Below are positions 28,371 to 48,651 of a stretch of 61,292 bases of DNA, piece by piece. Made by a program: the position numbers and the translations under genes. Source of the DNA: an uncultured Fretibacterium sp. Its GTDB lineage: Bacteria > Synergistota > Synergistia > Synergistales > Aminobacteriaceae. The notes under the pieces were generated by a model. The model saw only the letters and a program-made list of their open reading frames with translations, did no database searches and had not been told where the DNA came from. The first letter of the stretch is position 1; the number at the start of each line of letters is the position of its first letter. The stretch is taken from contig CAMGZM010000013.1 of the NCBI GenBank assembly GCA_946183145.1, forward strand, positions 1-61,292. The letters are read 5' to 3'.

Positions 28371-29901
28371 ATGTTTAAGCGTTACAAGTTTGTTGCGCTG
28401 TTGTTGTGCTTGTGCGTTTTTTCGTTTGGCATTGCTGGTAATGCGCTGAGGCTCAAGAGTTCACATCTGACAATTGCTCAACTACATTTCTTGCGGCGTT
28501 GAAGGCAGCTACGGGAACAACTACAGATACAGTAACAATAGACGTAACAAGCATTACAGGGCTTAGTTTCACTTCTGACGGTCTATCGAATGCCGGGGGA
28601 ACTGATTTTTCAAAAGCTACTGATGAAACGACAAAAAAGCTGTTGCGGCTATCACGAATATGAAAGGTATTGAGCTTTTCACGCAACTCACGGCACTTGA
28701 TGTTTCAGGATGCACGGCACTCACGGCACTTGATGCTTCAGGTCTCACGCTCTCAACGCTGAATATTACGGGAGTTCCCGGATTCATCTCAACGAGGCAG
28801 TACACACTGAGCGACACAAAAAAGCTCCTTTACGGCGGCAATCCCACAATTACCAGCGATGCAAAATTTTACGCAAAGCAGCTTGAGCTTACAGAAGGCA
28901 GCCTCAGAATGTATTTCTACATGGAACCCGCAAGTACTACATCTGGTTTGAGCGATAACAGCATAATGGAGTTTTATGTAGGGAATAGCAGCACTAAGCA
29001 AACAGCGAAATACGATGCAAGTGTTACGTACACTGATTACTACGATTCGACTAATCACACATTCAGTGCAACACAGTCAAGCGGCACAGCAGTAACACAT
29101 TACGGATTTGCGTGCGACGTAACATCAATACAGATGGCCGATAGTATTCAAGCTACGTTTACGCCCGGAGATTCAGGAAGCCCGTCATCAATTACTTACA
29201 CCGTAGCAGATTACCTCGATGCGGTTATCGCTCTGAATGGCAGCGCAACGGATCTCGCAAAAGCCATCAAGGATTACGGGCATTATGTGCAGAAACCTCT
29301 TGCGACGCTTCACGGTTTTGTTACAGTAGCAACAGCAATAAACGAAGGCAAGGAAGGCCACATCACAATACCCACGTCAAACACAACAATTACCAATGTA
29401 ACAACAACTACCGTTGAATCGTATAAACTCACCAGCACGCTCGGCGATGGTGCTGAAGTCGGAAGTGCGTTACAGCTCGACTCAAATATTACGCTCCTTG
29501 TGTATCTTCCTTCAGGAACAACGGTTAACGAGGTCAAGAAAGGCGACGAGACAAACGCGCTCACACTAAATACGGATTACTCAGTTGACGGTGAAGACTA
29601 CAAGACAGGCGGAAAAGTTGTTGTAGCAATTCCGAACCTCACAGCAAAGGAACTCACAACGAAATACACAATCACCACATCAGACTCAAACAAGACGGTT
29701 ACAGCTTACGGATTATCTTACGTTCATTCCGTGCTTAATCTGACGGATGCACAGAAAACAGCACTGAAAGCCTCATCAACAAATCTGTTAAGCCTGAACG
29801 ATAACGATTTCAACGACTTCGTTACGAATCTGCAAAATGCGGTTAAGGCACTCTATAACTACTACTATGCAGAAACACAATACAACCCCCAGAACTCATA
29901 G
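28371..29901 (+). pseudogene. Cassette A secreted protein, two -1 frameshifts
   Basis: Begins MFKRYKFVALLLCLCVFSFG, a signal peptide nearly matching cassettes B and C. The frame breaks after GNA (about 28444) and resumes one base on as EAQEFTSDNCSTTF. It breaks again in an A6 run (about 28631-28636) and resumes as VAAITNMKGIELF. Restored length would be about 510 residues. The order is a unique N-terminal region, short Leu-rich repeats (LTALDVSGCTALTALDASG), a beta domain (LELTEGSLRMYFYM, HYGFACDVTSIQMADSI), a KAIKDYGHYVQ helix and a second beta domain ending in FNDFV/ALYNYYYAE. Such domain pairs occur in clostridial LRR surface proteins (memory). Function unknown. Confidence 0.75.
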
Positions 29902-29916
29902 AGAGGAGAACACAAA

Positions 29917-30051
29917 ATGACGAAAGACACAAAGAAAATCTACAGCACACCCGAAGCAGAAATCGTACGTTTTGACTCAGAAGACGTAATCACAGCAAGC
30001 GGCGAGGAAGGCACAAGCGGACACTCAACACTTATGCCCGTAGTCTACTAA
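29917..30051 (+). CDS. Cassette A small peptide with RFDSED core
   Basis: A 44-residue peptide starting 15 bases after the cassette A protein, behind GAGAGGAG. It reads MTKDTKKIYSTPEAEIVR, FDSEDVITASGEEGTSG, HSTLMPVVY. It shares PEAEI.RFDSEDVITA with cassette B and C peptides and keeps a Gly/Ser-rich middle, a conserved His and a Leu/Met-Pro pair near the end. The spacer and ribosome site are identical to those of cassette B. Shape (acidic conserved front, Gly/Ser/Thr variable tail) recalls a precursor peptide, but no modifying enzyme is near and no family is recognised. Confidence 0.7.
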   Translation: MTKDTKKIYSTPEAEIVRFDSEDVITASGEEGTSGHSTLMPVVY

Positions 30052-30080
30052 CTCATTCACGCATTAAGCGCAAAAAAATT

Positions 30081-30118
30081 CCCCCGGCTCATTCACGGCT
30101 GGGGGATTTCGTTTTTCT
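30081..30118. terminator. Bidirectional terminator between cassette A and argD
   Basis: CCCCCGGC pairs with GCTGGGGG. The plus strand is followed by ATTTCGTTTTT and the minus strand by AATTTTTTT, so it can serve both converging units. Confidence 0.75.
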
Positions 30119-45679: not shown

Positions 45680-45820
45680 CTAGTTGACTATGGGGAGTCT
45701 TGTTGCGTGTCCTGATGTGTCGCCGCTGTCGCCGCCGCTTGCTGTGATTACGTCCTCTGAGTCAAAACGTATGATTTCTGCTTCGGGTGCGCTGTAGATT
45801 TTCTTTGTGTCGTGTGTCAT
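45680..45820 (-). CDS. Cassette B small peptide with RFDSED core
   Basis: A 46-residue peptide reading MTHDTKKIYSAPEAEIIR, FDSEDVITASGGDSGDTS, GHATRLPIVN. Start ATG 45820 behind GAGAGGAG, 22 bases after the stop of the cassette B protein, the same gap and site as in cassette A. Nearly identical to the A peptide in its first 29 residues, with most changes in the Gly/Ser/Asp-rich middle. It is intact even though the upstream protein gene has a stop, which suggests the peptide is kept by selection or that decay is recent. Confidence 0.7.
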   Translation of the reverse strand: MTHDTKKIYSAPEAEIIRFDSEDVITASGGDSGDTSGHATRLPIVN

Positions 45821-45842: not shown

Positions 45843-47099
45843 TTATTCTGTCAGTCCCTTGTACTTGCATGTTTCTGCGTAGTAATTGTAGAGTGCGATT
45901 ACTGCGTTCTTTAGGTGAGTCGCCCGCGTTTTCGCATTATCTACAGTTACAACGCTATTCGTGGTAGCTTTAATCTCCTCTTCAGTAAATAGCGTTTTTT
46001 TCATGTCATCCGTTAATGTCAAATTTTCAACATTAACAGTAGCGACGAAATCAAGCATACCCTTCACGTAGGACATCGGCGAAACTGTAACCGTGTAATT
46101 TGTGCCTGAGAGTGTTACGGGAATCGTGTACTTGTAGAACAGCTCATGCGCTGAAATGTCCGCGAACGTTATAGTATTCTCTGTTTGGTCGTGTATGTAC
46201 CCGTTGCCCCCGTTGCCGTCCCCGAGTGTGGCTTGTTCTGTCTCGTTCCATGTCCACGTAGTACCCCCGTTTGACTCTTCCGACTTCCACGCGCCTGTCC
46301 GGGTAATGTTTACGTTATCTGTAATCGATGCGCCTTCAGGAAGATTCACGACAAGACTCGTTTTTGACATAAGGTCGAGCGTGAACCCTAAATCTTTGAG
46401 AGCGGTACTTGCGTCAGTATTGTTATTGTCTGCGTAAGTTTTGGTGATACCGTAATCTTTAACAGCATTCGTAGCGTTTGTACTATCATCAAGCGTATTA
46501 TCTGATTGGGTTATTGTCGCATGATTAGCACTTTTGCAATCCGCGTTTGTCTCATTAAGTGTAGTCAGCGCGTAATGTCCGTAATCCTTGAGTGCCTTCG
46601 CAAGAGCTACAGTCTCTGTGCTGTATGACGTACCATTAGATGTAGTACCATCAAGTATGTTGAGGTACTCTTACACGGTGCAGCTATCAACTGTTCCTGT
46701 TTTGTCGCCGACTTTTATCGTTCCGATTATCGGGTCATTCATCTGCACAGAGGTTAATTCAACGAGAAACGCGTAAAGTGTAACCGCTGCCGCCCCTGTT
46801 TCCCCGCTTGGTGCATTGCCTTCCGTAAATTTTCCGTCCTTGATATAACCTGTGAGGCACTCATTCTTGTTGAATGTCCAGTTATTTGTTACTACGCCGT
46901 TAATGCTGAAAGTCGTTCCCGTTGTACTTGCGTCAGGGTTATCAAGCGCAACATAGAAGGCCATATTGAGACTCCCGTCAAGAATGAGCTGCTTCGCATA
47001 AACCTTGAACTCAACATCAGCGCACGCCGTACCAACAATGCTGCACGAAAAAACGTACGCGCAAACCATAAGCGCAATAAACCTGCAACGCTTAAACAT
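45843..47099 (-). pseudogene. Cassette B secreted protein interrupted by an in-frame TAA
   Basis: Start ATG 47099 (MFKRCRFIALMVCAYVFSCS) behind ACAGGAGG, with a signal peptide ending near CADV. The first beta domain reads LILDGSLNMAFYVAL and LVELTSVQMNDPI. At 46671-46673 a TAA stands in place of the residue that precedes EYLN (the A and C proteins read ADYLD and EDYLN). The same frame then runs open to 45843: KALKDYGHYA twice-like, FTLDLMSKTSLVVNLPEG, ISAHELFYKYTIPVTLSG, ALYNYYAE. Total about 418 codons with the stop. A one-base change would restore it. TAA rules out selenocysteine or pyrrolysine readthrough. Confidence 0.75.
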
Positions 47100-47226: not shown

Positions 47227-47376
47227 CTAGTAGAGCGGATTGCTTCCGGTGATGAACGGGAGTCTTGTTTCGTGTCCGCCGGTTGTGGCTGTGATTATGT
47301 CCTCGCTGTCGAAACGGATGATTTCTGCTTTGGGTGATTCGTATTTGCGCGCCTTGCTGTATTCTTTCTTCTGCAT
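47227..47376 (-). CDS. Cassette C small peptide with RFDSED core
   Basis: A 49-residue peptide starting at ATG 47376 behind AAGGAGG, 31 bases after the cassette C protein. It reads MQKKEYSKARKYESPKAE, IIRFDSEDIITATTGG, HETRLPFITGSNPLY. The core SPKAEIIRFDSEDIITA matches A and B, while the basic front and the tail after the LP pair differ. This is the most diverged of the three, and its partner protein is the only intact one. Confidence 0.7.
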   Translation of the reverse strand: MQKKEYSKARKYESPKAEIIRFDSEDIITATTGGHETRLPFITGSNPLY

Positions 47377-47407: not shown

Positions 47408-48607
47408 TTAGTTCGTTGCTGTTGGAGCTTTCCTGTAAGCGAGTGTTTTCTCGTAGTAATTGTAGAGTGCAACGACAGCCTGCTTGAAGCGCGTAAGTTC
47501 GTTATTGTCATCAAGTCCCATGCTTGTCTTCATGTCTTCTTCATATGTCAGTAGCGTTACAGCGTAAACATATGACATTGGTGAAATCACGATAGTGTAT
47601 GACGTGTTGTTTATCGTTACGGGGATTGTGAATGTGTCGCCGAGCTGGTGCGCTGAAATATTGGAGAACACAATCTGAAATTCAGAGTCGGAATCAGGAG
47701 TTGTTACGTTATCCGCAACTTTATAAACGTCATCGTTAGTAATGCTATTAGCAGAGCCAGCCTCTACAGTTATAGAACCAGCCTTTACAGTTATATCACT
47801 AGTCGCACTTCTGAGGGATGACTCTTTCGGAAGATATACACGAAGAGCAGTCTTTGAGTCGAGGTCAAGCGTGAAACTTACGCCCTTATAAATCTCCGTA
47901 TTGGCCTCCGCTGTCTTATTATCATCTGTGTAGATTTTGATTTTGTGAGATTTAGTCAAACTTGTGGTTGTACCAAGACTATTATTGTTTGGTGTCATTT
48001 CTTTGTGACCTAAGGACTTGGAGTTGGTATCTGCGAGCGTTTTTTGTGCGTAATACCCGTAATCCTTTATCGCATTCACGAGTGCCACAAGATTAACATG
48101 CGTACCGTAAGTATCATATTTCAAGAGTTTGTTAAGGTAGTCTTCTACGCTGTCAATTGTGGAGCTGTTTGTTACGGTTGTTTCTGTTGAGGCTTTTGTG
48201 TATTTGTATGTAGCGATAATTTCATCGGCCATCTGAATCGCGTTTACATCGCATCGGAATCCGTGAAGCGTAATATCTTGATCATTATCGTCTTTTGCTT
48301 TTTGAGTTTCTATTTGCTCGCCGCTGTTTTCTTTTATGATCATATCTGTCTTGTAGTCAATACTTGGGTCTGCTTCAGTGTTAGCGATATCGAAATTCAT
48401 TGTGCCAGCAGTATTAGTATCGAAATCCTTCATGTAGAAATACAGTCCGAGCTGACCCGAAAGCACTAAAGCATTTGAGCTGAAAGTCGGATCCGTCGCC
48501 CACGCAATTGACCTTCCGCCCCAATCACCGAAAATATTCACCGTGTCATACGCAAAAACACATAGACACAACGCCAGCGCAACAATAAACTTGCAACGCT
48601 TAATCAT
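47408..48607 (-). CDS. Cassette C secreted two-domain protein (intact)
   Basis: The start is ATG 48607, behind ACAGGAGG (an earlier in-frame ATG lies outside the conserved leader). 399 residues. A signal peptide (MIKRCKFIVALALCLCVFAY...) ends near AWA. The first beta domain has LVLSGQLGLYFYMKDF and LHGFRCDVNAIQMADEI. A helical piece LVNAIKDYGYYAQ (about 190) follows, then a second beta domain with FTLDLDSKTALRVYLP, ISAHQLGDTFTIPVTI and the closing FKQAVVALYNYYEKTLAY. No membrane anchor or sorting signal at the C-terminus. Same architecture as A and B. Function unknown. Confidence 0.7.
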   Translation of the reverse strand: MIKRCKFIVALALCLCVFAYDTVNIFGDWGGRSIAWATDPTFSSNALVLSGQLGLYFYMKDFDTNTAGTMNFDIANTEADPSIDYKTDMIIKENSGEQIETQKAKDDNDQDITLHGFRCDVNAIQMADEIIATYKYTKASTETTVTNSSTIDSVEDYLNKLLKYDTYGTHVNLVALVNAIKDYGYYAQKTLADTNSKSLGHKEMTPNNNSLGTTTSLTKSHKIKIYTDDNKTAEANTEIYKGVSFTLDLDSKTALRVYLPKESSLRSATSDITVKAGSITVEAGSANSITNDDVYKVADNVTTPDSDSEFQIVFSNISAHQLGDTFTIPVTINNTSYTIVISPMSYVYAVTLLTYEEDMKTSMGLDDNNELTRFKQAVVALYNYYEKTLAYRKAPTATN

Positions 48608-48651
48608 GTTTATCGTACCTCCTGTTAAAATTTTTCGGAATTGCATTGAGC

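Follow-up and report, generated by a model that had tools for sequence, protein, structure and literature searches.

The question raised by this locus is what is encoded by three short open reading frames in the window, by which we mean the whole stretch of 61,292 nucleotides analysed here, from an uncultured Fretibacterium sp. An initial annotation, made from the sequence alone, had described peptides that are alike at the front and variable at the tail and had likened them to precursors of modified natural products. The reading favoured here, to which we give a probability of about 0.8, is that they are precursors of a RiPP system of the type of the Linear Polyphosphorylated Peptides (LPP; reported in 2026 with the lpp cluster of Paenibacillus alginolyticus, PMC13381572), with the precursors dispersed over the genome.

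Three short peptides and their family

All three reading frames were found where the initial annotation had placed them. Precursor peptide 1 (29917..30051, forward strand) has 44 amino acids, with the leader MTKDTKKIYSTPEAEIVRFDSEDVITAS and the tail GEEGTSGHSTLMPVVY. Peptide 2 (45680..45820; 46 amino acids, leader ending in DVITAS, tail GGDSGDTSGHATRLPIVN) and peptide 3 (47227..47376; 49 amino acids, leader ending in DIITAT, tail TGGHETRLPFITGSNPLY) are encoded on the minus strand, a point on which the annotation was silent. Peptide 3 carries Thr at the position of an otherwise conserved Ser. The predicted tail ending with a His and an [LM]P pair was recovered as a GH..T[LR][LM]P stretch, and the claim that each peptide has its own ribosome site was borne out by a GGAG-type site close upstream of each; for peptide 1 the site GAGAGGAG lies in the spacer to the preceding secreted-protein gene (29902..29916, forward strand). 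Directly downstream of peptide 1 there is a terminator-like stem of 10 pairs (30080..30106, forward strand), recognised by consensus match only.

Used as a query against the source genome, peptide 1 retrieved copy 2 with E=4e-16 and copy 3 with E=8e-7, a likeness well above what chance would give. The DNA of peptide units 1 and 2 was 86% identical over 167 nt, and the likeness between these units (29848-30004) stopped at the junction of leader and tail. Codon changes among the window copies were few and leaned towards synonymous (dN/dS about 0.5), with numbers too small for a strong test.

The source genome contains eight copies of the peptide over five contigs, three in the window and five paralogues on other contigs, the weakest of which gave E=0.7 with a single sequence and 5e-11 with a profile. 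A profile scan of named genomes added 80 peptide loci, mostly from Ruminococcus, other Oscillospiraceae and Lachnospiraceae, with one from Thomasclavelia and one from Synergistaceae. Ruminococcus flavefaciens YAD2003 and Y1 each have several precursors. An alignment of homologues, suggested with the initial annotation, confirmed a conserved leader in 115 peptides from Synergistales and gut Clostridia, with the consensus Y..PE.E[IV][IV].F[DE].ED[VI]ITxS (n=115: Y 100%, P 90%, E 97%, F 97%, D 99%, I 97%, T 90%, S 97%). The tails comprise 4-25 residues and are rich in Gly, Glu, Asp and Pro; many are merely 4-8 residues long, which is short for a natural product and counts against their being precursors. 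An [LM]P pair was present in 43 of the 115 tails; when the tails were shuffled, the number averaged 16 and never exceeded 25. The peptides have no family name in Pfam or NCBIfam, a search of the peptide profile against solved structures gave no match, and the motif strings did not occur in the open-access literature collection searched.

A probable processing cassette and its link to the peptides

In agreement with the initial annotation, no cassette enzyme was found in the window. A PqqD search identified a single copy of a PqqD-type discrete RiPP recognition element (RRE) in the source genome, on a different contig, where it forms part of an operon encoding a secreted papain-like protein with an IGV domain (see below), the RRE, an HprK-like kinase, an S26 peptidase and an NTP transferase. 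The kinase matched HprK_rel_B at 2e-5, below the family cut-off, and gave no match as a profile against solved structures; its P-loop, SGTGKST, was invariant in 17 sequences. The S26 peptidase, of the SipW/archaeal type, matched TIGR02228 at 5e-9, also below the cut-off; Ser27 and His67 were invariant, and most sequences had an Asp 26 positions after the His. The NTP transferase (PF14907) was detected in all eight genomes tested and adjoins the S26 gene in the source genome. The closest likeness to the source cassette was found in a Synergistaceae MAG from goat (L015/L127), with 71% identity for the kinase and 77% for the RRE; the goat cassette also contains a tandem repeat of the kinase end and the S26 start (L122:2399-3200). 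The genome-wide search for enzymes that the initial annotation had called for yielded a protease, and the likely modifier is the kinase rather than the radical SAM enzyme it had named. The peptide exporter that it had also named was present, as an ABC exporter, in the Clostridial cassettes, but none adjoins the source cassette, which counts against an LPP-type system.

The gene arrangement kinase - RRE - S26 peptidase - ABC exporter - NTP transferase recurred in most neighbourhoods examined in peptide-bearing genomes. All eight peptides of the source genome lie away from the cassette, whereas in several relatives a precursor lies inside the cluster. Within the same genus, two loci (L166, L167) have an operon of IGV protein, peptide, kinase, RRE and S26 peptidase, and a third (L165) has at least four precursors in tandem ahead of the kinase. 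A cassette gene was located within the flank at 13 of the 80 peptide loci, against about 0.5 expected.

Co-occurrence was strict in two samples from different phyla. The peptide was found in seven and the kinase in 11 of 151 Synergistales genomes, all seven peptide-bearing genomes having both (one-sided Fisher p 1e-9); in the family sample of Ruminococcus flavefaciens (119 genomes) the respective numbers were nine and 16, again with both in all nine (p about 1e-9). These p-values take genomes as independent and overstate the strength of the association, because relatives share history. A PqqD match was obtained in 29 of 30 peptide-bearing genomes and scored over the cut-off in three of 14 control genomes. 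Seven genomes of the Clostridial sample had the kinase and no peptide at the strict threshold, which counts against an LPP-type system; one kinase-only case in Synergistales turned out to have a diverged peptide after all. At the level of sequence, the cassette operon, the strict co-occurrence in two clades and the linkage in relatives together support the suggestion that the peptides are precursors of modified natural products.

Recognition of the leader by the RRE was modelled at a Ruminococcus locus at which peptide and RRE share one frame, so that reading the stops as Gln gave a single chain. AlphaFold modelled the two leader blocks of this chain with pLDDT 95 and 82, the linker below 50 and the RRE at about 95, and the best Foldseek matches of the model were lasso RREs solved with leader peptides. 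The confidence values and the strand assignment suggest that the leader docks on the groove of the RRE, for the one Clostridial pair modelled in this read-through form. The RRE matched LppB (PDB 9x8z_B) at 1e-5, with the lasso protein TbiB1 scoring higher. In LppB, N33 and D70 hold the Pro and Tyr of the YxxP motif (PMC13381572), and the equivalent Asn and Asp were invariant in 18 RREs; they were aligned to N51 and D88 of the LppB chain, the offset of 18 to the published numbering being a mapping made here, and many lasso and PQQ RREs also have these residues (PMC13381572).

Secreted proteins and lipoproteins next to the peptides

Each window peptide follows a gene encoding a secreted protein. 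Copy 1 (28660..29901, forward strand), upstream of peptide 1, encodes a C-terminal domain (E 1e-21) that we term IGV from its motif IGVNFY, with boundaries set here; AlphaFold gave a pLDDT of about 90 across most of it. Copy 2 (45843..47099, minus strand; signal peptide) precedes peptide 2 and copy 3 (47408..48646, minus strand; C-terminal IGV domain, E 5e-17) precedes peptide 3. Frameshifts between 28371 and 28660 displace the start of copy 1, and copy 2 contains one in-frame TAA near 46669, so that two of the three IGV genes in the window look disrupted, each followed by an intact peptide; this may reflect an error of assembly, as MAG assemblies may carry frameshifts.

Seven of the eight peptides in the source genome follow a gene for an IGV-domain secreted protein; a paralogue without such a gene (L012; G000:C4:154208-154312) has a very Gly-rich tail. 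Over the whole collection, 70 of 107 peptides were immediately preceded by an IGV gene, and of 83 IGV genes 71 had a peptide behind them. The domain occurred in seven of the 151 genomes of the Synergistales sample, all seven with the kinase. A fold search with the IGV domain returned just Ig-like sandwich matches of middling Z, from which no function was read. A second class of secreted protein (TRFVF; ending in DLTCxLxFE or similar) precedes peptides at L025, L030, L035, L050 and L060, and a secreted Ruminococcus protein with a ubiquitin-like domain was seen ahead of a peptide at L090:3441-5954.

The peptide or the cassette often has a neighbour in Clostridia that encodes a small lipoprotein containing a disordered linker. 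These lipoproteins end in IELPFVPVG-like sequences or, where the secreted protein belongs to another class, in DDGLxWSPLxPVN, an association seen by inspection; the lipoprotein neighbours at the second-class loci likewise end in DDGLxWSPLxPVN or close variants. Paired lipoproteins and peptides had nearly identical C-termini (five pairs, scores 50-76, against 29 for the 99.9% null), and IELPLVPLR was common to a peptide tail and a lipoprotein C-terminus (L048, L070). No such lipoprotein was seen beside the window peptides.

A probable variant of the LPP systems

The close pairing with IGV genes could also mean that the peptide is no RiPP precursor and instead serves the upstream-encoded secreted protein as a small cytosolic partner, such as a chaperone or regulator. 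We regard this as unlikely, since peptides also occur in tandem arrays adjoining the kinase and behind unrelated secreted proteins or lipoproteins, the cassette co-occurs strictly with them, and the leader was modelled confidently with the RRE; in a read-through model with the IGV domain the peptide stayed undocked, which is weak evidence. That the peptide forms a C-terminal extension of the secreted protein through stop-codon read-through is barely conceivable: peptide 1 and some two dozen others are in frame with the upstream gene, but the frames over 70 pairs (25/28/17) fit an absence of selection for a shared frame, and this randomness, on which the fusion was rejected, is joined by the separate ribosome site of each window peptide.

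Lasso peptide precursors offer a closer comparison. Clusters of the paeninodin type share the RRE, here a discrete PqqD protein, an HprK-like kinase, a nucleotidyltransferase and an aromatic-xxP leader motif, represented here by YxxP (PMC7533575, PMC13381572). The leader aromatic is Tyr here and Trp there, however, the RREs have Asn and Asp where those of paeninodin systems have Gly and Gln, and an S26 peptidase takes the place of the B2 leader peptidase. The latter (PF13471) was absent from the source genome and over the cut-off in one of 30 genomes searched; membership was rejected because B2 is lacking, and many tails are in addition too short for a ring, which makes a lasso precursor very improbable.

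The LPP systems agree with the present one in the discrete RRE, the HprK-like kinase, the archaeal/SipW-type signal peptidase and the NTP transferase, as well as in the YxxP leader, a conserved front with a highly variable C-terminus and the lack of a lasso B2 peptidase. LPP clusters include an MsbA-like exporter, to which the ABC exporter corresponds in the Clostridial cassettes. In LPP biosynthesis LppS, a signal-peptidase-like protein assisted by the RRE, cuts the leader after T-1, and LppK multiply phosphorylates residue S3 of the core (PMC13381572). The Thr (90%) and Ser (97%) of our junction resemble this arrangement, at a spacing one residue shorter, and by analogy are the likely sites of cutting and phosphorylation; a -3/-1 signal-peptidase rule considered for the T-x-S junction was replaced by this LPP reading, with a cut after Thr and a phosphorylated Ser. 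The Thr at the conserved Ser position of peptide 3 counts against it, because a Ser-to-Thr change abolished phosphorylation in LPP (PMC13381572). After YxxP the leader reads E.E[IV][IV].F..ED[VI]ITxS here and xVLxHQxIxFETxxS in LPP; the eight precursors are dispersed behind secreted-protein genes, whereas LPP clusters contain one to three; and IGV-domain proteins and lipoproteins accompany them. The hosts are Synergistales and gut Clostridia, while LPPs have been called restricted to Bacillota and were studied in Bacilli near capsule loci (PMC13381572). As the leader departs from the LPP consensus and most precursors lie outside the cluster, we class the system as a variant of LPP rather than a plain member. 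Judged against one open-access literature collection and the family libraries, the leader, the genome-wide dispersal of precursors, the IGV domain, the companion lipoproteins and the presence in Synergistales are new relative to LPP.

For an LPP-type system we infer phosphorylation, a cut site, export and a surface role in the following sequence. The peptide would be made along with the secreted protein whose gene immediately precedes it, and its leader (YxxPE.E[IV][IV].F) would bind the discrete RRE as a strand. The HprK-like kinase would then phosphorylate the nearly invariant Ser at the leader/tail junction, and the SipW-type S26 peptidase would cut next to the conserved Thr two residues before it, freeing a short tail that the NTP transferase may modify further. 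The tail would leave the cell, in Clostridia probably through the linked ABC exporter, and act at the surface in some connection with the protein encoded next to it. More tentatively, this could amount to a surface-labelling system in which one central cassette of kinase, RRE and peptidase processes many dispersed precursors, each tail being a ligand, tag or tether of the neighbouring secreted protein or lipoprotein. We consider that extension possible rather than probable; if it were true, the match between tails and lipoprotein C-termini and that between lipoprotein motif and secreted-protein class would reflect a shared binding partner.

The findings would extend LPP-like systems to Synergistales, in an arrangement shared by gut bacteria from two phyla. 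Because the precursors of such systems lie far from the enzymes, most of them can escape mining that is based on clusters. LPPs are without a known role, and in bacteria of the rumen and gut the ties of precursors to particular secreted proteins and lipoproteins offer a concrete, testable starting point for seeking a function at the surface of the cell.
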